Virus record (IMG/VR): IMGVR_UViG_3300030202_001155
Span: 1-45,899 of that record
Length of the DNA: 45,899 nt
Strand: one strand, 5' to 3'
Source: a virus
The stretch's first letter is position 1, and every line of letters begins with the position of its first letter. Under the pieces are notes generated by a model. It had not been told where the DNA came from. It saw nothing but the letters and a program-made list of their open reading frames with translations, and did not search any database. Position numbers and translations under genes: made by a program. Shown piece after piece: positions 1,397-11,083 of the stretch.

Positions 1397-2002
1397 ATGA
1401 AAACATTTACAACAATTTCTTATGAAGATACACAAGAAGATTTATCGCCTGATAGCTGGGCTGTAGATAATCCTGAGGATTATAAATGGCTCACTGATAA
1501 TGCTTCGCAGAATGATTTTGCTGCTAGCTTACTTTCTTTTTTAAACACTCATGGTCACTTGACTGAGAAACAACATCAGTGTGTTAAAAGAAATGTTTGC
1601 AAGGACCAACCTTTAGATGTCAACTCACTAGAATTAGAAGAGAAATTTAAGACAGCTAGGTCTAATGGAGTAAAATGGCCAAGAATGACCTTTGATAACA
1701 TAAAGGTTAAGCTGGCTGGAGACAACAGTCGTAATCCAGGAGCTCTCTACGTCACTGAGTACGGTAATTATCTGGGTAAAGTTTACCACGGAAAGTTTTA
1801 CAAAGTCCCTGAGTGCTCCCCTGAGGCATCCGAAAAAATCAAAAAGTTAATTTCAGACCCTGAAATGACTGTAAAACGGTATGGCATAGAAACAGGGCAG
1901 TGTTGCATATGCAGTCGTACTTTAACAAATCCTGAATCAATAAAACTAGGTATGGGTCCAATCTGTCGCACTAGTTTTGGTTTTTCAGGCACATTCATAT
2001 AA
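1397..2002 (+). CDS. DUF6011-type zinc-binding protein
   Basis: The 201-residue protein ends with a cysteine cluster around residues 167-190: GQCCICSRTLTNPES followed by LGMGPIC. This is the signature of DUF6011, a short probable zinc-binding module common in phage proteins of unknown role. The N-terminal 80 residues are acidic and contain a helical stretch. The central part (about 92-140) looks like a small beta domain (GALYVTEYGNYLGKVYHGKFYKV). The gene is the first of the operon led by the promoter at 1339, with SD GGAG eight bases before the ATG. A DNA- or RNA-binding role is plausible, but the function is unknown. Confidence 0.8.
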   Translation: MKTFTTISYEDTQEDLSPDSWAVDNPEDYKWLTDNASQNDFAASLLSFLNTHGHLTEKQHQCVKRNVCKDQPLDVNSLELEEKFKTARSNGVKWPRMTFDNIKVKLAGDNSRNPGALYVTEYGNYLGKVYHGKFYKVPECSPEASEKIKKLISDPEMTVKRYGIETGQCCICSRTLTNPESIKLGMGPICRTSFGFSGTFI

Positions 2003-2012
2003 GGAGGAAAAA

Positions 2013-2456
2013 ATGTTAAATTTTGAAAATATGAAAATGAAAGAATTGGTTGATTATTATAATAGTTACGAAGGTAATAAACCTATTAAGAAGTTTCGTG
2101 ACAAATCTACAGCTATAGCAAGATGTAAAGATTTATTAAAAGTTGTTAAAGAAGTAGAAGATGCTGGTTACCCTGCTGTAAAGAAAGAGTTTACTGGTCA
2201 AGCACTCAGAAATAGAAATATGAGTGCGTCTTTACAACTGGACAGAACTCTTATTGTTGTTAATCCTATTGACGACGGTGAACCAGATGTTGCTGAATTT
2301 GATAATGTTCATCAAATGTGGCAAGTCTGTCCTAAGTGGGTTACTGGTGCTCAAGTAGATAGATTAACTCGCACTCTTTACGGTAATGCCAAGCAAGGTA
2401 AAAGAGTAGAAGTTGTTATCAACGAAAGAACATATATGTTAAAATCAGTAAGATAA
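2013..2456 (+). CDS. Conserved phage hypothetical protein
   Basis: I take the start at 2013 because a perfect AAGGAGG sits six bases upstream. The frame opens earlier, at 1977, but that ATG lies inside the previous gene without an SD. The protein has 147 residues. Its first 45 residues contain ELVDYYNSYEGNKPIKKF then RDKSTAIARC, a pattern (YN, KPIKKF, aromatic, basic) found near the N-terminus of many small phage and bacterial proteins of unknown role. The rest is mixed alpha/beta, ends MLKSVR and has no catalytic motif. Its stop overlaps the start of the PLP-enzyme gene by one base, so the two are translationally coupled. Confidence 0.75.
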   Translation: MLNFENMKMKELVDYYNSYEGNKPIKKFRDKSTAIARCKDLLKVVKEVEDAGYPAVKKEFTGQALRNRNMSASLQLDRTLIVVNPIDDGEPDVAEFDNVHQMWQVCPKWVTGAQVDRLTRTLYGNAKQGKRVEVVINERTYMLKSVR

Positions 2457-3406
2457 TGCAATCTGTATTTGAAACATATTCCCTCAATAGAGAAGACATA
2501 AAATGGGAACACCATTTGTCTTCTCTAACTCCATGGGAGTTAAAGTCAGGAGTCTGGTTTAAAAGAGACGACTATTTTGCTCCCTTGGGGTACAATGGTC
2601 CTAACGGATCAAAAATGAGACAGCTTATTTGGTATATCAATAGATTTAGAGAAGGTAAAAATCATATTGTTACTGGAGCATCTATTCAATCACCTCAGTT
2701 AAGTATGAGTGCTATAGTAGGTGCTCATTACGGTCTTAAAAATAGGCAAGTAGTTTACAGTAGACCGCACACAGTTAAGACTCATGTTAATCCTAAAATT
2801 GCTGCTGGCTTTGGCGCAGTGTTTGAATATGCGTCTGGTCCTTATAATCCTATTATTCAAAAAAGAGTAGCAGATTTAACTCAAGAGAATTCATTGGTAG
2901 TAGAATATGGTATAACAGTTCCTCATACTCGTTATCCTGCAGAAGATGTAAGAAAATTTCATGAGGTTGGTGCCTATCAAACTTCTAATATGCCAGAAGA
3001 AATAGAAAGATTAATTGTCCCTGCTGGTTCTTGTAATTCTTTGACCAGCGTTCTATTAGGATTAAGCCGAGACTCTAAAAATTTAAAAGAGTTATTTACT
3101 ATTGGTATAGGTCCAGATAAAAGAGAATGGGTTAATGAAAGATTAAAAATAATGGGAGTAGATCCTGAGTATTTTAATTTTGAATGGAATCATTATTCTT
3201 TACATGATAATAAATATGCTTCTTATAGCGATAAATTTAATAATGAAACATTTGAAGATATAACATTTCATCCTACGTATGAAGCTAAGATGTGGAGATG
3301 GTTAAGAGAAAGAAATCCTTTAGACTATGATGATAAAACTGGATTTTGGATAGTAGGTAGTGCTGCTGATAGTAAAGTAGTAGAACCATTTTATACGCAT
3401 ATATAG
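2456..3406 (+). CDS. PLP-dependent fold-type II enzyme, ACC deaminase / D-cysteine desulfhydrase-like
   Basis: The 316-residue sequence follows the tryptophan synthase beta superfamily throughout. VWFKRDD (33-39) matches the KREDL-type strand. GSKMRQL (51-57) carries the probable Schiff-base lysine K53. GASIQSPQ (74-81) corresponds to the GGIQSN substrate-binding loop of ACC deaminase, with the usual N replaced. VPAGSCNSLTS is the phosphate-binding loop, and HPTYEAK matches the DPVYxxK segment. The family performs beta-elimination, deamination or replacement on amino-acid-like substrates. Here the gene opens a cassette of thymine-hypermodification enzymes, so its substrate may be an amino acid already attached to DNA. 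That is inference; a free amino acid is the alternative. Confidence 0.75.
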   Translation: MQSVFETYSLNREDIKWEHHLSSLTPWELKSGVWFKRDDYFAPLGYNGPNGSKMRQLIWYINRFREGKNHIVTGASIQSPQLSMSAIVGAHYGLKNRQVVYSRPHTVKTHVNPKIAAGFGAVFEYASGPYNPIIQKRVADLTQENSLVVEYGITVPHTRYPAEDVRKFHEVGAYQTSNMPEEIERLIVPAGSCNSLTSVLLGLSRDSKNLKELFTIGIGPDKREWVNERLKIMGVDPEYFNFEWNHYSLHDNKYASYSDKFNNETFEDITFHPTYEAKMWRWLRERNPLDYDDKTGFWIVGSAADSKVVEPFYTHI

Positions 3407-3423
3407 AAAGGAGTCAAGATTCA

Positions 3424-3726
3424 ATGATAACACATTTAATTATGAGAATGATTATTCAATGGCATCATGATAGAAATTTAATTAAAGGAAGTTCTGATAA
3501 AGATCAAGTTCTTAAATTAATGCAAGAATTAGGTGAACTAAGTGATAGTGTCTGTAAAGGAAATGATCTTAAAGATGATCTGGGAGATATGATGGTAGTT
3601 ATGTTAAACATTATGGAAAGAAATAATATAACGATGGAAGAGTGTTTAACGGTAGCTTATGATGATATTAAAGATCGTAAAGGGAAGATGATAGATGGTA
3701 TCTTTGTTAAAGAAGGAGATAAATAA
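3424..3726 (+). CDS. MazG-like nucleotide pyrophosphohydrolase
   Basis: This 100-residue all-helical protein has the MazG-type metal-binding pattern: QELGEL (E35, E38) on one helix and DDLGDMMVVM (D52, D55) on the next. It is followed by the conserved C-terminal form AYDDIKDRKGKMIDGIFVKE. Small single-domain MazG proteins cleave (d)NTPs to monophosphates and pyrophosphate. In a cassette that replaces thymine, the natural targets are dTTP or dUTP, which would favour the modified nucleotide; that is inference from context. The last codons (GGA GAT AAA TAA) also form the SD of the next gene, whose ATG overlaps the stop by one base. Confidence 0.75.
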   Translation: MITHLIMRMIIQWHHDRNLIKGSSDKDQVLKLMQELGELSDSVCKGNDLKDDLGDMMVVMLNIMERNNITMEECLTVAYDDIKDRKGKMIDGIFVKEGDK

Positions 3727-4493
3727 TGGTTATAACTACAACTAAATGGAAGATATTAAATAAATATGATTTTGAACTATTACCAGGAGAACCTCAAAAG
3801 ATGCCTGATGGTGATTACAGTTATTATCAATATTTAAATAAGAGATGGCAAGAAACTGGCAAGAATGTTTTATGTCAAGAATTTTTATTGGCTCCTCATA
3901 AAAGAAGCGAGAATGCTAATGATTTAATTGTAGCTGAACCATTCGGAGGATGCGGTGTATTTTCTATAGCTATTCAACATTTATTGAAACCTATGCATCA
4001 TTTTATAGGAGAGTTAGATGAAGATTGTGTAAGACAGTTATATTTCTGCACTGCTTCTTACCCAGGAGTAACAGTTCATCAAGAAGATGCTCATGAAAGA
4101 TTAGGAGTTTTACCTGCAGATATTTACGTATGTGATTTTCCTTTCTTCACTTTAATAAAACATAGTGAGCAAAACATGTGGGTTAAAGAGATGGAAAGAA
4201 TGATTTCTCATAAACCTGAAGCTATCATTATAACCGATGGTTCAAGTTGTCGCTGGCATTTCACTGCAAAGAATTTAAAGAAGAGAGGGTATGATGTTAA
4301 TAATCATAGAGAAAGTTATGCGCCAGTCTTTGATAAATACTTTAACGAAAAATATAATTACAGAGTAACTGCTGTAGCTTACCATGGAACCTGTTTTTAT
4401 ATTAAAATACAACCAGCAGAATTATATAGTGATAAAATAGCATTTAAACATATACCTGCAGGAGAAGGTAGCAACGGATTAAAACCACGATGA
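3726..4493 (+). CDS. Rossmann-fold methyltransferase-like protein
   Basis: The 255-residue protein shows an AdoMet-dependent methyltransferase layout. AEPFGGCGVFSIAI (about 70-83) is motif I with the GxGxxS/T-type loop, followed by an acidic residue after strand 2 (FIGELDEDC). ADIYVCDFPFFTL sits where amino-methyltransferases carry D/N-PP-Y/F, here DFPFF. The N-terminal 60 residues are variable, and the C-terminus ends in a proline/glycine tail. Its place between the PLP enzyme and the amino acid:DNA transferase suggests that it methylates the modified base or acts as a tailoring enzyme. Motif IV is not canonical, so catalytic activity is uncertain; it could be an inactive or divergent relative. 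Confidence 0.6.
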   Translation: MVITTTKWKILNKYDFELLPGEPQKMPDGDYSYYQYLNKRWQETGKNVLCQEFLLAPHKRSENANDLIVAEPFGGCGVFSIAIQHLLKPMHHFIGELDEDCVRQLYFCTASYPGVTVHQEDAHERLGVLPADIYVCDFPFFTLIKHSEQNMWVKEMERMISHKPEAIIITDGSSCRWHFTAKNLKKRGYDVNNHRESYAPVFDKYFNEKYNYRVTAVAYHGTCFYIKIQPAELYSDKIAFKHIPAGEGSNGLKPR

Positions 4494-5491
4494 AAAATTA
4501 TAAATTAAAAGAAAATAGAAGAGAGTATTTTGATGCTCTTTATAAATTAAATTTAGAATATGGTATTATGCCTGGTCTAGTTTATTTATACATGCCTGCT
4601 TTAGCTAAACATTATTCTTGGAACAATGAAGATAAATTATGGTTTTCTTTTTTAAATGGTATGACTCAGAACCCAATAACCTCAATTCAATTATTAGAAC
4701 AGTTACCGAATGTTCCTCCTGCTGGAGCGACTCTTTCTAAATTTGATAATTGGTTTAATGATAATTGGGATATGTTAAAATATGACACAGACAGAAGATA
4801 TCAAAAGAAAGATACTGTTGATGCTATTAAATCTTATGCTCAAATTTTATCTAATTATTCTTCTCAAGAAGAAATGCTTACCAATAATTATAAAGAGCTC
4901 TGGAATTTAGTAAGTAATAATTATAATTCATTTGGTAGATTATCTTCATTCAGTTATTTAGAATATGTTTACTTAAATGGTTTTGGTGCTGATTGTGACA
5001 ATTTATTATTTGAAGATAAATCTGGAAGTAAATCGCATCGTAATGGTATGATGATTTTACATGGAGCAGATAATTTTGTCTGGGATAAAAGAGCTAAAAA
5101 TGAATTTAGCGGAGACTATCCTGATTTCAAAAAAGTGTGCACCTGGCTAAATGAAACTGCTACTCAACATTTAACTGAATTTAAAAGTAAATATCCTGAC
5201 ATTTCTCATGTGGGTAATTTTACTTTTGAAAGTAATTTGTGCACATTTAAAAATCATTTTTTCGGAAGAAGATATCCTGGCGTTTATGCAGATATGGGAT
5301 GGCAAAGAATTGAGTGGGCAGAAGAAAGAGGAATTAACACTTCTATTTTTAAAGATATAAGAGAAGAATATTTACCTGATTGGTTAAGAATTGAATGTTC
5401 TGATTTAAAAGTAGATATTAATAAATTTGGTTCATTGTTCCAAGAAACAGGAACACCATTTAGAGGAGATAAATTTTTATGTCAAATATAA
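4490..5491 (+). CDS. Amino acid:DNA transferase-like protein (thymine hypermodification)
   Basis: The 333-residue protein resembles the amino acid:DNA transferase (AADT) proteins of phages with hypermodified thymine. Recognisable segments are the N-terminal LYMPALAKHYSWN and WFSFLNGMTQNP, YNSFGRLSSFSYLE (145-158), SHRNGM (182-187), and FGRRYPGVYADMGWQRIEW near 270. In phages such as ViI and M6 this class transfers an amino acid (glycine has been shown) to the activated 5-hydroxymethyl-dU in DNA. The assignment rests on these motif shapes and on the adjacent DNA-kinase gene, which starts before this gene ends (13-base overlap). The amino acid used here cannot be read from the sequence. Confidence 0.7.
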   Translation: MKNYKLKENRREYFDALYKLNLEYGIMPGLVYLYMPALAKHYSWNNEDKLWFSFLNGMTQNPITSIQLLEQLPNVPPAGATLSKFDNWFNDNWDMLKYDTDRRYQKKDTVDAIKSYAQILSNYSSQEEMLTNNYKELWNLVSNNYNSFGRLSSFSYLEYVYLNGFGADCDNLLFEDKSGSKSHRNGMMILHGADNFVWDKRAKNEFSGDYPDFKKVCTWLNETATQHLTEFKSKYPDISHVGNFTFESNLCTFKNHFFGRRYPGVYADMGWQRIEWAEERGINTSIFKDIREEYLPDWLRIECSDLKVDINKFGSLFQETGTPFRGDKFLCQI

Positions 5492-6066
5492 TACTTAGAA
5501 TATGTGGAACTTTCGGCTCTGGTAAAACTACCGCAGTTAGAAAATTTTTAGAAGATTATCCTAATGAAACTTTGCATGTAGAAAAGAAAATAGCTGGTTA
5601 TAAATTAGATTTAAAATCTGAAGATATAACTAGACCTGTTTTTGTTATAGGTAAATACGATAATGTTTGTGGAGGAACAGACTCTATGTCTACTCAACAA
5701 TTGATTGCTGATAGAATAATGCAAGCACATCCTCATGGACATGTTATGTATGAAGGTGCTTTAGTTTCTGCTTCCGGGTTAGGAGGTAAAGTCACTCAAG
5801 CAACTGAAGAAACAGGATGCACTGTTTATGCATTTTTAGATACTCCAGAAGATTTATGTATTGAAAGAGTTAAACAAAGAAGATTAAATGCTGGAAATGA
5901 AAAAGAATTTAATCCTAAAAATTTAATAGATAAATTTAAGAGTGTTGCTAATTGTAAAAAGAATCTTTTAGCAGCAAAATGCGCAGTGACTGATTTAGAT
6001 CATACTAATACTCATCCTACTTTATTAAATTTAATTAGAAATTTTGATCAAGGGAGATTTGAATGA
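5479..6066 (+). CDS. 5-hydroxymethyl-dU DNA kinase (P-loop kinase)
   Basis: This 195-residue P-loop kinase has Walker A GTFGSGKT (10-17) and GKYDNVCGGTDSM (58-70). The CGGxD form in the latter is typical of the 5-HMUDK kinases found in hypermodifying phages. YEGALVS (91-97) and a lid-like VKQRRLNAGN (131-140) are also visible. The family phosphorylates the hydroxymethyl group of 5-hydroxymethyl-dU in DNA, creating the leaving group that the amino-acid transferase displaces. The start overlaps the transferase gene by 13 bases and has SD GAGGAG about ten bases upstream. Its ATGA overlap with the next gene implies that the pair is made together. Confidence 0.85.
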   Translation: MSNIILRICGTFGSGKTTAVRKFLEDYPNETLHVEKKIAGYKLDLKSEDITRPVFVIGKYDNVCGGTDSMSTQQLIADRIMQAHPHGHVMYEGALVSASGLGGKVTQATEETGCTVYAFLDTPEDLCIERVKQRRLNAGNEKEFNPKNLIDKFKSVANCKKNLLAAKCAVTDLDHTNTHPTLLNLIRNFDQGRFE

Positions 6067-6986
6067 TATTAGATAGACCGTATAACCCACCTTCACCTGA
6101 CAATGTGACTTCAATAAATGCTTTATTATATTTTATTTGGGAAAGAGAAGCTATTCGTATAGCTAAAGTAAACAGGTATAATGGAGAGTTAACTCAAGAT
6201 CCTATTTTAAAGAAATATAAATTTACTAACATTAGAAGAAAAGATGATCGTGTTAGTAAATGGATTATAAATAATATTATTCTTAATGCGGAAATAAACG
6301 AAAATAGTTTATGGTTTACTTTATTAATTGCTCGTTTAATTAATTGGCCACCAACTCTTCAACATCTTATTGATTGTAAAGAAAATATATTATTGCAGAA
6401 TCCTCATGATTTTGATCCTAAAAGTTTTTCTTTAGCAATAGAAAAATTTAGAGAAACAAATTCTAAAGCATATTCTGGTGCTTATATGGTTTACCCTACT
6501 AAAAAAGATATCGGCTCTGTTAAATCTTTATCTTTAGGTAAACATATTATTAAACCTGTTTTAAATATAGCAGAAGAAGTAGATTACATTTTATACACGG
6601 AAAACAGTATTGAAAAATTTGTTAATGTTTTATCTAACTGTTTCGGTATAAGCACTTTCATTGCTGGGCAAGTGGCAGCAGATTTAACTTATTGTGAAGC
6701 ACCATTAAACAATGCGTTAGATTTATATACTTATGCTCCAATAGGACCAGGAAGTTCTAAAGGGTTAAATTATCTTTTAGGCAGGAAACCTTATGCTGAA
6801 TGGAAACAAGAAGATTTTAATGATGAACTGAAAGATATAAATGAACAAATTAAATCTAATTTAGAAATAACTGACTTGACTTTACATGATGTTCAAAATA
6901 TTATGTGTGAATATAGTAAGTATGCCAGAACATTATTAGGACAAGGTAAACCTAAAACTATGTATAAACCAGAGGAGAATTTTTAA
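6063..6986 (+). CDS. Helical partner of hmdU DNA kinase (HMUDK_hel / thymine pyrophosphorylase type)
   Basis: The 307-residue protein carries the features of the family found beside 5-hmdU DNA kinases and described as alpha-glutamyl/putrescinyl-thymine pyrophosphorylase-like. These are LLYFIWEREAIRI (21-33), DPILKKYKFTNIRRKDDR (46-63), a segment FIAGQVAADLTY, and GPGSSKGLNYLLGR resembling GPGSRRGLNRL. Such proteins are predicted to recognise or turn over the phosphorylated base during hypermodification. It is not clear whether this one assists the kinase or performs its own displacement step. The ATG overlaps the kinase stop (ATGA) and the stop overlaps the hydroxymethylase start by one base. 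Confidence 0.75.
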   Translation: MILDRPYNPPSPDNVTSINALLYFIWEREAIRIAKVNRYNGELTQDPILKKYKFTNIRRKDDRVSKWIINNIILNAEINENSLWFTLLIARLINWPPTLQHLIDCKENILLQNPHDFDPKSFSLAIEKFRETNSKAYSGAYMVYPTKKDIGSVKSLSLGKHIIKPVLNIAEEVDYILYTENSIEKFVNVLSNCFGISTFIAGQVAADLTYCEAPLNNALDLYTYAPIGPGSSKGLNYLLGRKPYAEWKQEDFNDELKDINEQIKSNLEITDLTLHDVQNIMCEYSKYARTLLGQGKPKTMYKPEENF

Positions 6987-7999
6987 TGGAACTCAGAGTA
7001 GAAAATGTAAATGAAGCATTTCAAGAAATATTATGGAAATTTAAAGTGCTTAACCTTCAAACTGAAGAAACTAGAAACGGACCTGCTTTAGTTTATCCTG
7101 AAATGGTAACTACTATTTATAGGTTTCCTGATGAAAGAGTTTTATTTCATCCTAAAAGAGATGCTAACCCTATCTTTCATTTAATGGAAGCTATATGGAT
7201 GATAGCAGGTAGAAATGATGTTCAGTTTGTAAATCAATTTAACAGTAATATGAAAAATTTCAGTGACGATGGGAAAGTTTTTAATGCTGCTTATGGCCAT
7301 AGATGGAGAAAACATTTCGGCACTGATCAATTATTAGATGTTATAAGTTTATTAAAACAAGACATAAGCACTCGCCAAGCTGTTATTCAAATGTGGGATG
7401 CTGAAGATTTGGTAAAAGAAACATGTGACAAAGCATGTAACACTCAATTAATATTTGACACTAGGAATAATAAATTAAATATGACAGTGTTCAATCGTTC
7501 TAATGATGTTTGGTGGGGTGCATATGGTGCTAATGCTGTTCATTTTAGTTTCTTGCAGGAAGTTATAGCTAGAGCTATTAATTATCCGTTAGGAGAATAT
7601 AGACAAGTTTCTAATAATTTTCATTTTTATACTGAGTTGTATGATGCTATGAGTTTATTAGATAATCCTCCTAACGAACATTCAGAAAATCCTTACCATT
7701 ATGGAGAAGTATCAGCATTACCTTTAATGGATAATGATGATTATGCAGGATTCATTTTAGATTGTGAACAATTCTGTAAAGATCCTTTTGGCTTTGACAC
7801 AGCTTTAAGAACTCCTAATTATAAATTTAACCACAGCTTCTTTATGTCAGTGGCTCGTCCTATGGCTCTTATTTCATGGATAAGGAAACATAACAATGGA
7901 GATGGTATGCTGCAAGCTAAAAGTATAAAAGCACCTGATTGGAAAAGAGCATGTGAAGAATGGATCATTAGAAGAGACTCAAAAAATAATGAAAAATAA
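6986..7999 (+). CDS. dUMP hydroxymethylase (thymidylate synthase family)
   Basis: This 337-residue member of the thymidylate synthase/dCMP hydroxymethylase family shows AAYGHRWR (101-108), the catalytic cysteine in KACNTQ (C151), NRSNDVWWGAYGAN (170-183) and the phosphate-side HFYTELYD. The residue after the catalytic Cys is Asn rather than the His of ThyA, and N183 occupies the place of the uracil-reading Asn, which is Asp in dCMP hydroxymethylases. This favours dUMP as substrate. Together with the DNA kinase and transferase, the likely product is 5-hydroxymethyl-dUMP. Plain thymidylate synthase activity remains possible. The gene ends the cassette; a promoter follows. Confidence 0.8.
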   Translation: MELRVENVNEAFQEILWKFKVLNLQTEETRNGPALVYPEMVTTIYRFPDERVLFHPKRDANPIFHLMEAIWMIAGRNDVQFVNQFNSNMKNFSDDGKVFNAAYGHRWRKHFGTDQLLDVISLLKQDISTRQAVIQMWDAEDLVKETCDKACNTQLIFDTRNNKLNMTVFNRSNDVWWGAYGANAVHFSFLQEVIARAINYPLGEYRQVSNNFHFYTELYDAMSLLDNPPNEHSENPYHYGEVSALPLMDNDDYAGFILDCEQFCKDPFGFDTALRTPNYKFNHSFFMSVARPMALISWIRKHNNGDGMLQAKSIKAPDWKRACEEWIIRRDSKNNEK

Positions 8000-8063: not shown

Positions 8064-8414
8064 ATGAAAAAGAAATGTAAATTATGTGAAGTAGAATTAG
8101 AAGATATGGGAAATAATCCGTATCCGTTAATTAAAGATGAAGGAGCCAGAGTTTGTCATACTTGTGATAACTTTGTCGTTACAGCTAGGATATTTGATAT
8201 GCAAGGAATGCCAGAATTTATACAGTATAATAAACTAGTAAACTGGGTATTAAAAGAAATGCCTAGTGGAGATTACCAAAGAATAGTAAAAGGGGATACA
8301 CCTCGTAGTCTTAACAGTAGAGAAGGAAGAATATTAACTAACCTTTATGTGTATTGTGATTTTCCTCAAAGTAAAAAACAACAAGAACTCAGAGACAAAA
8401 GGAATGCCAAATGA
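8064..8414 (+). CDS. Small zinc-finger-like hypothetical protein
   Basis: The 116-residue protein begins with a likely zinc site, CKLC (5-8) paired with CHTC (31-34), and is followed by a helical region without known motifs. CHTCDNFV resembles treble-clef-type phage proteins. The SD AAGGAG lies 10 bases before the ATG. The gene is the first under the promoter at 8003 and overlaps the HD-hydrolase gene by four bases (ATGA), which ties it to nucleotide metabolism only by position. Function unknown. Confidence 0.75.
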   Translation: MKKKCKLCEVELEDMGNNPYPLIKDEGARVCHTCDNFVVTARIFDMQGMPEFIQYNKLVNWVLKEMPSGDYQRIVKGDTPRSLNSREGRILTNLYVYCDFPQSKKQQELRDKRNAK

Positions 8415-8908
8415 AGGAGACACTTGAATTTATATTAGATGGAGCAGCAGTTAAAAGATTTCATACTGTTACTGTGCTTCATGAAGAAACAGTGGGACAT
8501 CATTCTCATACTGTAGCTATGATGTGTCTTTTACTTAACCCTAATGCTAGTAGAAATTTATTAATGGCAGCAATGTTTCATGATTTATCTGAACATAAAA
8601 CAGGTGATATACCTTCTCCTGCTAAACGAGAATATAAAATAACTGAACAAGTAACTAATTTAGAAAATGATTTAATGGTGGAAGCAGGTATAGAATTTCC
8701 TACATTAACTAAAGAAGAAAAAAGAACTTTAAAGTTAGCAGATATAGCATCAGGTATGATATATTGTATTCAAGAAGCACAAATGGGTAATAATAAAATG
8801 TTAAAAATATTAAAGACTTATTTAAGCTATACTAAATTATTTTTCTTACAAGGAAGAGAAGAAGATTTATTTTATCACATTCAAGAATTACAAATGGAGG
8901 AATTATAA
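8411..8908 (+). CDS. HD-domain deoxynucleotidase (YfbR-like)
   Basis: This 165-residue HD hydrolase shows FHTVTVLHEETVGHHS (17-32), the metal-binding HD pair in AAMFHDLSEHKTGDIPSP (H57, D58, E61) and a later DIASG (D111). This matches YfbR-type 5'-nucleotidases, which dephosphorylate deoxynucleoside monophosphates. In a phage that replaces thymine, such an enzyme could remove dTMP or recycle host dNMPs; this is inference from the neighbouring hypermodification genes. The start overlaps the previous stop. Confidence 0.8.
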   Translation: MKETLEFILDGAAVKRFHTVTVLHEETVGHHSHTVAMMCLLLNPNASRNLLMAAMFHDLSEHKTGDIPSPAKREYKITEQVTNLENDLMVEAGIEFPTLTKEEKRTLKLADIASGMIYCIQEAQMGNNKMLKILKTYLSYTKLFFLQGREEDLFYHIQELQMEEL

Positions 8909-8909
8909 A

Positions 8910-9257
8910 ATGTCAGCTAACAATAAACAAATAGGTGGTAACCATTATAAACACGATTCCGGAGAAGAGCATTGGGATCGTGTCAACAGATTAGGATTAA
9001 GTTATTTCCAAGCATGTGCTACTAAATATATTGAAAGAGCATATTTAAAAGGTAAACCTGTAGAAGATCTACAGAAAGCATCTCATTTTATTCAAAAGTT
9101 AATTGAGATTGAACAAGAAAAATTGGGTGAACCAACATCTGCTTATGTCAATCAAGATCCTGATCTTAAACCTGGTGACGCTCAATTAAATTTATTTGCA
9201 GAAGAAAGAAGACTTATAAAACAAGCAGAAGAAAAAATGGAAGCGAAATATAAATAA
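8910..9257 (+). CDS. DUF3310 protein
   Basis: The 115-residue protein contains QIGGNHYK (7-14), YFQACATKYIERAYLKG (34-50) and a helix with DLQKASHFIQKLIEIE. This is the pattern of DUF3310, a small phage domain of unknown activity often placed among nucleotide-metabolism and replication genes. The C-terminal 40 residues are charged and probably extended. It starts two bases after the HD gene with SD GGAGG, and its TAATG stop overlaps the DNA polymerase start by one base. Confidence 0.85.
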   Translation: MSANNKQIGGNHYKHDSGEEHWDRVNRLGLSYFQACATKYIERAYLKGKPVEDLQKASHFIQKLIEIEQEKLGEPTSAYVNQDPDLKPGDAQLNLFAEERRLIKQAEEKMEAKYK

Positions 9258-11083
9258 TGTATACTTGGGTCTTTGATACAGAAACATTACCTAATAGAAC
9301 TTTACTTAGTGCTAAATGTATAGAGACTGGAGAATGGTTTGATGTATGGAGACATGAAGAAAATGCAGTAGATAAACTTTTACAATTTGTCAAGCAAGAA
9401 AATACTTTTGTAGGTTTTAATTCTTTATCATTTGACAATATTGTAGTATCTGCATTTTGTGCTGGAAGAAAAGAACAAGAAATAAAAAGAATGGCAGACG
9501 ATTTAATTCAAAATAGATTACCTTATTGGAAAGCATTTCCTAAATATCAATTAAGAAAGTATTTAAAAGATCATATTGACTTAATTGAAGTGGCTCCTTC
9601 ATTTGTAGGTTTAAAAGCATACGGTGCTAGAATGCATATGCCTACTCTACAAGACATGCCTTTAGCTCATGACACTTACATAACTCCTGATCAAGAAAAA
9701 CAGATATTAGAATATTGTCATAATGATGTGTTAACTACTCAACAGCTTCTAACTAATTTAGAAAAAGAAATAATGTTAAGAGTAACTATGAGTAAAAAAT
9801 ATGGGATAGATTTAAGAAGCAAATCAGATTCTCAAATGGCAGAACAAGCATACATAAAAACTATGGGATTAAAAAGACAAAATAATAAAATACCTGAAAC
9901 TATAATTTATAATCCTCCATCTTTTTTACAATCATTTAAAGATCCTATTTTAAAAAATTTATTATTAAGAATTCAAAATCATACATTTCTAATGAATCAG
10001 AAATCAGGTCATGTTGTACTACCTGAGTTTTTAGGTAAAGCTACTATAAAATTTGGTAACGGAGAATATCAATTAGGTGTAGGAGGAATACATTCAGTTC
10101 ATGATAAAAAAGTTTGTTATATTGCTGGTGATAAAATTATGGGTGAATTAGATGCTGCTTCATTTTATCCTTCTATTATTTTAGAATGCGGTTTTGTTCC
10201 TAAAAGTTTAGGAGAATCTTTTGTTGAAGAGTATCGTAATATTTATAATCAAAGATTAGAAGCCAAAGCATCTGGAGATAAAGCTACTAACGAAACATTA
10301 AAGATTAGTTTAAATGGCACTTTTGGTAAACTGGCTAGTAAGTATAGTGTTCTTTATTCACCAGATTTAATGTTAGCTGTTACTCTTACAGGACAATTAA
10401 CATTATTATTGTTGATAGAAAAATTAGAAAATATAGGAGTAGAAACTTTAAGTGCTAATACCGACGGCATAGCTATAAGGTATGATAAAATTATACATGA
10501 TCAAGTGCAGAAAGAAATAGATAAATTTAGTAAGTTATCTAAGTTTATATTTGAATTTACTCCTTATAGAGTTTTAGCAATGAAAGATGTTAACAATTAT
10601 ATAGCAGTTAAACCAGATAAAACATTAAAAGTTAAGGGAATATACTCTCCACTTTCCCTTAGAAAGAATCCTACCGCTCAAGTGTGTTCAGACGCTGTAG
10701 GAGAGTGGTTAGCTAAAGGTGTACCTTTCACAGACACAATTTACAAAAGTCCCTTCTCGGGCTTTATATCAGCTCGTAATGTTACTGGAGGTGGACAACA
10801 AGATGGTGAGTATTTAGGTAAAGTGGTTAGATGGTATCAATCTACTGCTAGTGTAGAGCCAATAAGATATTATACTAATAATAACAAAGTAGCTAAAACA
10901 GACGGAGCTAAAGCATGCATGACTGTTGAAGATTTTGTTACTCATCCTACCGATCTGGATTATGATTGGTATTTAAAAGAATCAATTAAAATAGCAGTAG
11001 CTGTAGGTGGTTCTAATTTTTTAACAGACCATGAGCTAGAACTTATCACTCCTGCTCCTAAACAAAGGAAGAAAAAGAAATGA
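9257..11083 (+). CDS. Family B DNA polymerase with 3'-5' exonuclease domain
   Basis: This 608-residue replicative polymerase has an N-terminal proofreading exonuclease with FDTE (D7, E9), GFNSLSFD (D60) and EYCHND (Y153, D157). The polymerase domain has motif A DAASFYPS (299-306), motif B KISLNGTFG (349-357) and motif C SANTDG (399-404). Motif C has Asn where cellular enzymes have the first Asp of DTDS, a variant common in phage family B enzymes, with D299 and D403 as the metal ligands. The C-terminus ends in a basic run (QRKKKK). It must accept the hydroxymethylated nucleotide if the upstream cassette works as proposed. Translation is coupled to DUF3310 and to the next gene by overlaps. Confidence 0.92.
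   Translation: MYTWVFDTETLPNRTLLSAKCIETGEWFDVWRHEENAVDKLLQFVKQENTFVGFNSLSFDNIVVSAFCAGRKEQEIKRMADDLIQNRLPYWKAFPKYQLRKYLKDHIDLIEVAPSFVGLKAYGARMHMPTLQDMPLAHDTYITPDQEKQILEYCHNDVLTTQQLLTNLEKEIMLRVTMSKKYGIDLRSKSDSQMAEQAYIKTMGLKRQNNKIPETIIYNPPSFLQSFKDPILKNLLLRIQNHTFLMNQKSGHVVLPEFLGKATIKFGNGEYQLGVGGIHSVHDKKVCYIAGDKIMGELDAASFYPSIILECGFVPKSLGESFVEEYRNIYNQRLEAKASGDKATNETLKISLNGTFGKLASKYSVLYSPDLMLAVTLTGQLTLLLLIEKLENIGVETLSANTDGIAIRYDKIIHDQVQKEIDKFSKLSKFIFEFTPYRVLAMKDVNNYIAVKPDKTLKVKGIYSPLSLRKNPTAQVCSDAVGEWLAKGVPFTDTIYKSPFSGFISARNVTGGGQQDGEYLGKVVRWYQSTASVEPIRYYTNNNKVAKTDGAKACMTVEDFVTHPTDLDYDWYLKESIKIAVAVGGSNFLTDHELELITPAPKQRKKKK

Follow-up and report, generated by a model that had tools for sequence, protein, structure and literature searches.

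The 45,899-nucleotide window analyzed here (positions 1-45899 of the 56,639-base IMG/VR virus record IMGVR_UViG_3300030202_001155, from an uncultured phage) carries a cassette for thymine hypermodification at 2456-7999. Its hydroxymethylase, DNA kinase and helical kinase partner form a known set together with the amino acid:DNA transferase (ADDT) and the pyridoxal 5'-phosphate (PLP) enzyme; what is new is a methyltransferase (MT, 3726-4493) tied to ADDT, which it neighbours in dozens of unrelated phages. On balance we lean slightly towards a ViI-type thymidine-hypermodification cassette on an M6-like backbone, extended by side-chain methylation. We further propose, with about even confidence, that MT represents an undescribed, widespread phage family serving as the dedicated partner of ADDT and giving rise to a class of amino-acid-derived thymines that carry a methyl group, the DNA counterpart of the 5-methylaminomethyluridine (mnm5U) pathway of tRNA. 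The product would be an N-methylated aminoethoxymethyl-deoxyuridine (dU) here and a methylated aminoacyl-dU in cassettes of the TET type.

Association of MT with ADDT

Queries with MT only yielded 60 viral contigs; some contigs of a diverged MT group had surfaced earlier through an ADDT query, and the MT queries recovered all of these independently. In 53 of the 60 contigs, no more than 100 bp separate MT from ADDT. Among the other seven, five end at most 207 bp downstream of MT, a sixth is truncated at MT, and the last (G009) has its ADDT elsewhere in the genome. The ADDT of several diverged cassettes was assigned by a profile built in this analysis, not by Pfam. The majority cassette type is TET/JBP-MT-ADDT-kinase, with no PLP enzyme within the records, and the window represents the type PLP-MT-ADDT-kinase-helical protein-TS, in which TS denotes a dUMP hydroxymethylase of the thymidylate synthase fold. 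Rearranged orders, such as ADDT-MT-kinase and MT-ADDT-TET, were found too. The pairing persists with either a dUMP hydroxymethylase or a TET/JBP oxygenase as the source of 5-hydroxymethyl-deoxyuridine (hmdU), and with or without a PLP enzyme.

In a quick tree of 119 ADDT rows, the state of MT (present or absent) changes 7 times (at least 6 of them forced by supported branches) versus 25.7 times when shuffled, a count that is approximate because some rows labelled as having no MT are truncated contigs. Judging from this difference, MT appears to have been gained and lost several times yet stays with ADDT. The tie is drawn from these comparative contigs, which are far stronger evidence than a single neighbourhood.

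Several of the MT-bearing contigs show further features. A hybrid cassette (L033:975-5672) has the order TET-PLP-MT-ADDT-P-loop gene, with a TET/JBP enzyme (PF12851, 1.3e-11) replacing the dUMP hydroxymethylase; its last gene was assigned by an analysis-built profile only. Two copies of MT stand in tandem before ADDT in L036:517-2318, the first being diverged (LEFPFF versus CDFPFF). Curli-like, FecR-like and adenylate-cyclase-like reading frames were recognized by eye near the MT homologues of L011 and L025, a neighbourhood that recalls the type VIII secretion system (T8SS) cluster of pelagiphages (PMC9599517).

Fold and conserved residues of MT

The MT protein has no match in Pfam, PHROG or NCBIfam, including the curated DNA methyltransferase profiles for m6A, m4C and m5C, and the MT profile, when searched against PDB sequences, returned only chance kinase matches. 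The AlphaFold2 model has a predicted local distance difference test (pLDDT) score of 88.1 and a predicted template modelling (pTM) score of 0.88. Its Foldseek matches in the PDB are class I methyltransferases, among them Trm1 (E 1e-8), RlmCD, TrmA, METTL16 and MnmM, and the closest structural matches are two proteins of uncultured phages, at 38% and 28% identity. Across 19 homologues, residues E71, G75, G77, D98, D137, P139 and D171 are invariant and T170 is nearly so. For the diverged MT group, which shares about 20-26% identity, profile comparison establishes homology with a probability of 99.4 and E 8e-22. From the model and these residues, we confidently assign to MT the fold of a class I methyltransferase and an S-adenosylmethionine (SAM) site, and predict that it probably transfers a methyl group.

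MT might instead be a non-catalytic, chaperone-like partner of ADDT, assisting base flipping or DNA delivery with no methyl transfer, a role consistent with its strict adjacency to ADDT while other partners vary widely. However, the glycine-rich loop, the acidic β2 residue, D137-x-P139 and D171 are kept at about 20-25% identity, unlike in a decayed enzyme, making this role very unlikely. An ordinary DNA adenine or cytosine methyltransferase, linked by happenstance to a cassette for the known base 5-(2-aminoethoxy)methyl-dU (5-NeOmdU), would fit a core equal to the ViI set, a class I fold whose D-F-P-F motif loosely resembles motif IV of N-methyltransferases, and the presence of the DNA methyltransferase M.BseCI among the Foldseek matches. 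We regard it as unlikely, as searches of Pfam, PHROGs and NCBIfam gave no match to a DNA methyltransferase family, the protein of about 250 amino acids has no obvious target-recognition domain, and such an enzyme would not be expected beside ADDT throughout rearranged cassettes.

A pattern scan found no MT in prokaryote genome contigs. Across 50,697 phage records, MT was found only in cyanophage Pam3 and the diverged type in none. MT is unnamed in the curated families and the literature searched, a search that did not reach the gene maps of Lee 2018, Lee 2022 and Iyer 2013, and its novelty holds relative to these databases and this literature.

Organization of the cassette

The cassette comprises seven tandem open reading frames that share a strand and mostly overlap; their junctions range from -13 to +17 bp. 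Together with their neighbours they are as follows.

1977..2456, plus strand: upstream gene, conserved ahead of the PLP gene in related cassettes; weak likeness to M6 gp49 and Pam3_38
2456..3406, plus strand: PLP enzyme of fold-type II, orthologous to ViI gp226, with Lys53 as the Schiff-base residue; predicted to decarboxylate the amino acid once attached to DNA
3424..3726, plus strand: MazG-like nucleotide pyrophosphohydrolase, optional accessory (PHROG 2e-37)
3726..4493, plus strand: class I SAM-dependent methyltransferase (MT) of an unnamed family, predicted to act on the side chain installed by ADDT
4490..5491, plus strand: amino acid:DNA transferase (ADDT), ViI gp247-like (PF18724)
5479..6066, plus strand: 5-hmdU DNA kinase, P-loop subunit (Walker A GTFGSGKTT, CGGTD)
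6063..6986, plus strand: HMUDK helical partner protein (PF18723)
6986..7999, plus strand: dUMP hydroxymethylase, thymidylate-synthase fold (TS; Cys151, Asn183)
8411..8908, plus strand: HD/YfbR-like 5'-deoxynucleotidase, member of the conserved module (M6 gp59; PF12917, 1.4e-14)
9257..11083, plus strand: phage DNA polymerase, end of the syntenic module, in the same place as M6 gp62 (phrog_1252, 3e-154)

All five anchor families of the cassette were recovered in searches of Pfam, PHROG and NCBIfam. The same gene order recurs across many independent contigs, and chance is therefore ruled out. The first-pass annotation had described a six-gene cassette for a hypermodified thymine of unknown structure; the cassette proved real, its reading frames, places and families were confirmed, and all the members listed exist, though they number seven. 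The genes at 4490, 5479 and 6063, on which that assignment hinged, fall within the transferase and kinase families (PF18724, AAA_33/HMUDK_HMUD1 and PF18723, respectively).

In nearly all cassettes with a dUMP hydroxymethylase, TS is followed by the HD/YfbR-like gene, which may have a role in the nucleotide pool. In L110 and L112, the PLP gene and the 1977-type gene are encoded on the other strand and lie about 7 kb away from ADDT.

Core enzymes

Profiles were built from the window clade and searched against the proteins of ViI, M6, Pam3, Montesquieu and phiA8-29; gp67, gp160, gp226 and gp247 are ORF numbers in the ViI record. TS matches the thymidylate synthase family (3.8e-20) and is 42% identical to M6 gp58 (profile E 1e-97). 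Its Cys151 and Asn183, both already picked out in the first-pass annotation, align with Cys146 and Asn177 of E. coli ThyA, the ThyA reference sequence having been entered by hand. The P-loop kinase matches AAA_33 above the cut-off and HMUDK_HMUD1 (PF18748) with 25.8 bits (8.9e-6), 1.2 bits below the cut-off of 27, and its profile matches M6 gp54, Pam3_49 and ViI gp67. The CGGTD motif noted earlier is indeed there, at kinase residues 64-68. In public records this kinase is labelled 'terminase small subunit' (ViI Vi01_061c, M6 gp054), as it is in PHROG 800, a spreading misannotation. The helical partner matches HMUDK_hel (PF18723, 1.5e-40), and its profile finds M6 gp55 (3e-31) and ViI gp160 (6e-15). 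ADDT matches PF18724 (1.6e-16, 61.2 bits against a cut-off of 26.2); its profile finds ViI gp247 (5e-30) and leaves M6 gp51 unmatched.

PLP enzyme and MazG

The PLP enzyme has no Pfam match and matches phrog_3650 (6e-80). It is 34-39% identical to the enzymes of the ViI group, with 34-35% over the full length by tblastn to Ackermannviridae. With ViI gp226 it shares 39% identity (profile E 7e-72), and M6 gp52 reaches only 5e-4. The model (pLDDT 91.6) bears out the predicted fold-type II, with D-cysteine desulfhydrase and 1-aminocyclopropane-1-carboxylate (ACC) deaminase as the best PDB matches by Foldseek, and Lys53 corresponds to the lysine of ViI gp226 in the alignment. Lee et al. (2018 and 2022) are said to have found the PLP enzymes of such pathways to be decarboxylases, with ViI using serine. 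The PLP enzyme had been considered foreign to described pathways and hence what makes the gene set new. We rejected this idea, as the enzyme is a gp226 orthologue and a published M6-like cassette also includes a PLP-dependent enzyme (PMC9476957). In G009 (L022:829-2988, IMGVR_UViG_3300024520_002273), the PLP enzyme and ADDT are fused into one protein of 720 amino acids, direct evidence that both enzymes belong to the same pathway; the fusion adjoins ParB, TET/JBP and P-loop kinase genes and has relatives in L037-L044.

The MazG protein scores 20.2 bits in Pfam, below the cut-off of 22, and matches the PHROG MazG family. It had been counted as a cassette member, and the gene is present; among MT-bearing cassettes it occurs only in the window and the identical L003, so it lies outside the conserved core and was dropped as part of the modification chemistry. 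A survey of the gaps between PLP and ADDT in five relatives revealed no second tailoring family; a dCTP deaminase and a DHH protein were seen. The dCTP deaminase-like gene (L152:9119-9661, PF22769, 2e-35) probably feeds the dUMP pool.

Comparison with known systems

Salmonella phage ViI (Vi01), whose DNA contains 5-NeOmdU (PMC11721090), has orthologues of TS (gp66), the kinase (gp67), the helical partner (gp160), the PLP enzyme (gp226) and ADDT (gp247). Its genes are scattered, whereas those of the window form a single operon, and the two ADDTs share only 26% identity; neither the ViI reference proteins nor the phage tblastn yielded an MT orthologue. Pseudomonas phage M6 and YuA-like phages, with 5-(2-aminoethyl)-dU (5-NedU), share the order kinase-helical protein-TS-HD-polymerase (M6 gp54 to gp62) as well as the 42% identical TS, but M6 has a radical-SAM enzyme, other PLP and ADDT subtypes and no MT. 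Isolated cyanophage Pam3 has a remote MT homologue, Pam3_39 (E about 5e-12), clustered with PLP, ADDT, kinase and helical protein genes; it differs in its M6-type PLP enzyme, a radical-SAM gene and a distance of about 5 kb between MT and ADDT. The TET/JBP-ADDT-kinase cassettes of mycobacteriophage Zemanar and Rhodococcus phage Tonitrus share ADDT and the P-loop kinase (PMC11955845) but make hmdU through a TET/JBP oxygenase, not a dUMP hydroxymethylase, and Zemanar has neither a PLP enzyme nor MT beside ADDT. Megablast of the window against isolated phages gave no match.

The window has the parts of an hmdU cassette, namely an hmdU source, the 5-hmdU DNA kinase with its helical partner, and ADDT. 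It also has the ViI-type combination of a gp226-orthologous PLP enzyme and a gp247-orthologous ADDT with no radical-SAM gene. The M6-type combination, a radical-SAM isomerase with M6-type ADDT and PLP enzymes, is absent, and no radical-SAM gene was found in the 56.6-kb record (no PF04055 match). Sequence comparison thus assigns the genome backbone to the M6-like kind and the PLP enzyme and ADDT to the ViI type. With the PLP enzyme and ADDT of ViI type, the remainder M6-syntenic and radical SAM lacking, the backbone product is most likely the ViI-like 5-(2-aminoethoxy)methyl-dU. The idea of a base of unknown structure therefore gives way, for the backbone side chain, to probably known chemistry, and MT stands as the genuinely unusual member. 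A transferred amino acid other than serine, for example glycine as in M6, would lead to another known base type such as 5-NedU. The M6-like genome backbone is compatible with this, but the ViI-like PLP enzyme and ADDT and the missing radical-SAM gene make it highly improbable.

Proposed pathway

We propose a pathway of five steps, the first four assigned by orthology. The TS homologue would form 5-hydroxymethyl-dUMP, which is then incorporated into DNA, and the P-loop kinase with its helical partner would phosphorylate 5-hmdU within the DNA. ADDT would swap the phosphate for an amino acid; as in ViI, this is probably serine, joined by its hydroxyl. The PLP enzyme would decarboxylate the attached amino acid, leaving a 2-aminoethoxymethyl side chain. 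Finally, as suggested by fold, motif conservation and co-occurrence, MT as the partner of ADDT would move a methyl group from SAM to the side chain, most likely to the amine, resulting in an N-methylated 5-NeOmdU-type base.

The choice of acceptor follows from the distribution of MT: since it occurs with and without the PLP enzyme, its target should outlast decarboxylation, which favours the amine and leaves the carboxylate unfit. Methylation of the carboxylate or another amino-acid position, or action before decarboxylation, would give a different methylated base. The TET-MT-ADDT-kinase cassettes, in whose records the PLP enzyme was not seen, would retain the carboxylate; in window-type and hybrid cassettes, however, a PLP enzyme stands beside MT, and the carboxylate is lost if this enzyme is a decarboxylase. 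We consider this alternative fairly unlikely and keep the amine as the probable acceptor. A precedent is found in the tRNA mnm5U pathway, where MnmC methylates 5-aminomethyl-U (PMC9626948). MnmC and MnmM likewise carry out SAM methylation of a primary amine on an amino-acid-derived uracil 5-side chain; they differ in the tRNA substrate and show no specific sequence relationship to MT, MnmM being among its Foldseek matches.

Several points weigh against the proposed pathway. Most window-like cassettes have a PLP enzyme and no MT, and MT is thus optional. The TET-MT records showing no PLP enzyme are fragments of at most 27 kb. In the PDB, MT matches generic methyltransferases of class I, with identities of 9-18%, and amine, carboxylate, hydroxyl and ring are all compatible with the sequence as acceptors. 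In addition, the low identity of the window ADDT to ViI gp247 goes with a long branch joining them, so the assignment of serine as the amino acid is not secure.

Implications

If the proposal is true, MT would add a new enzymatic step and a new class of base to phage DNA chemistry, with a single tailoring enzyme travelling with ADDT between two different hmdU routes. Restriction resistance is supported for ViI and M6 DNA (PMC6449724). In the present phage the modified base would likewise shield the genome from host nucleases, and restriction resistance may be the benefit. Which restriction enzymes and modification-dependent defences are effective against a phage depends on bases of this kind.

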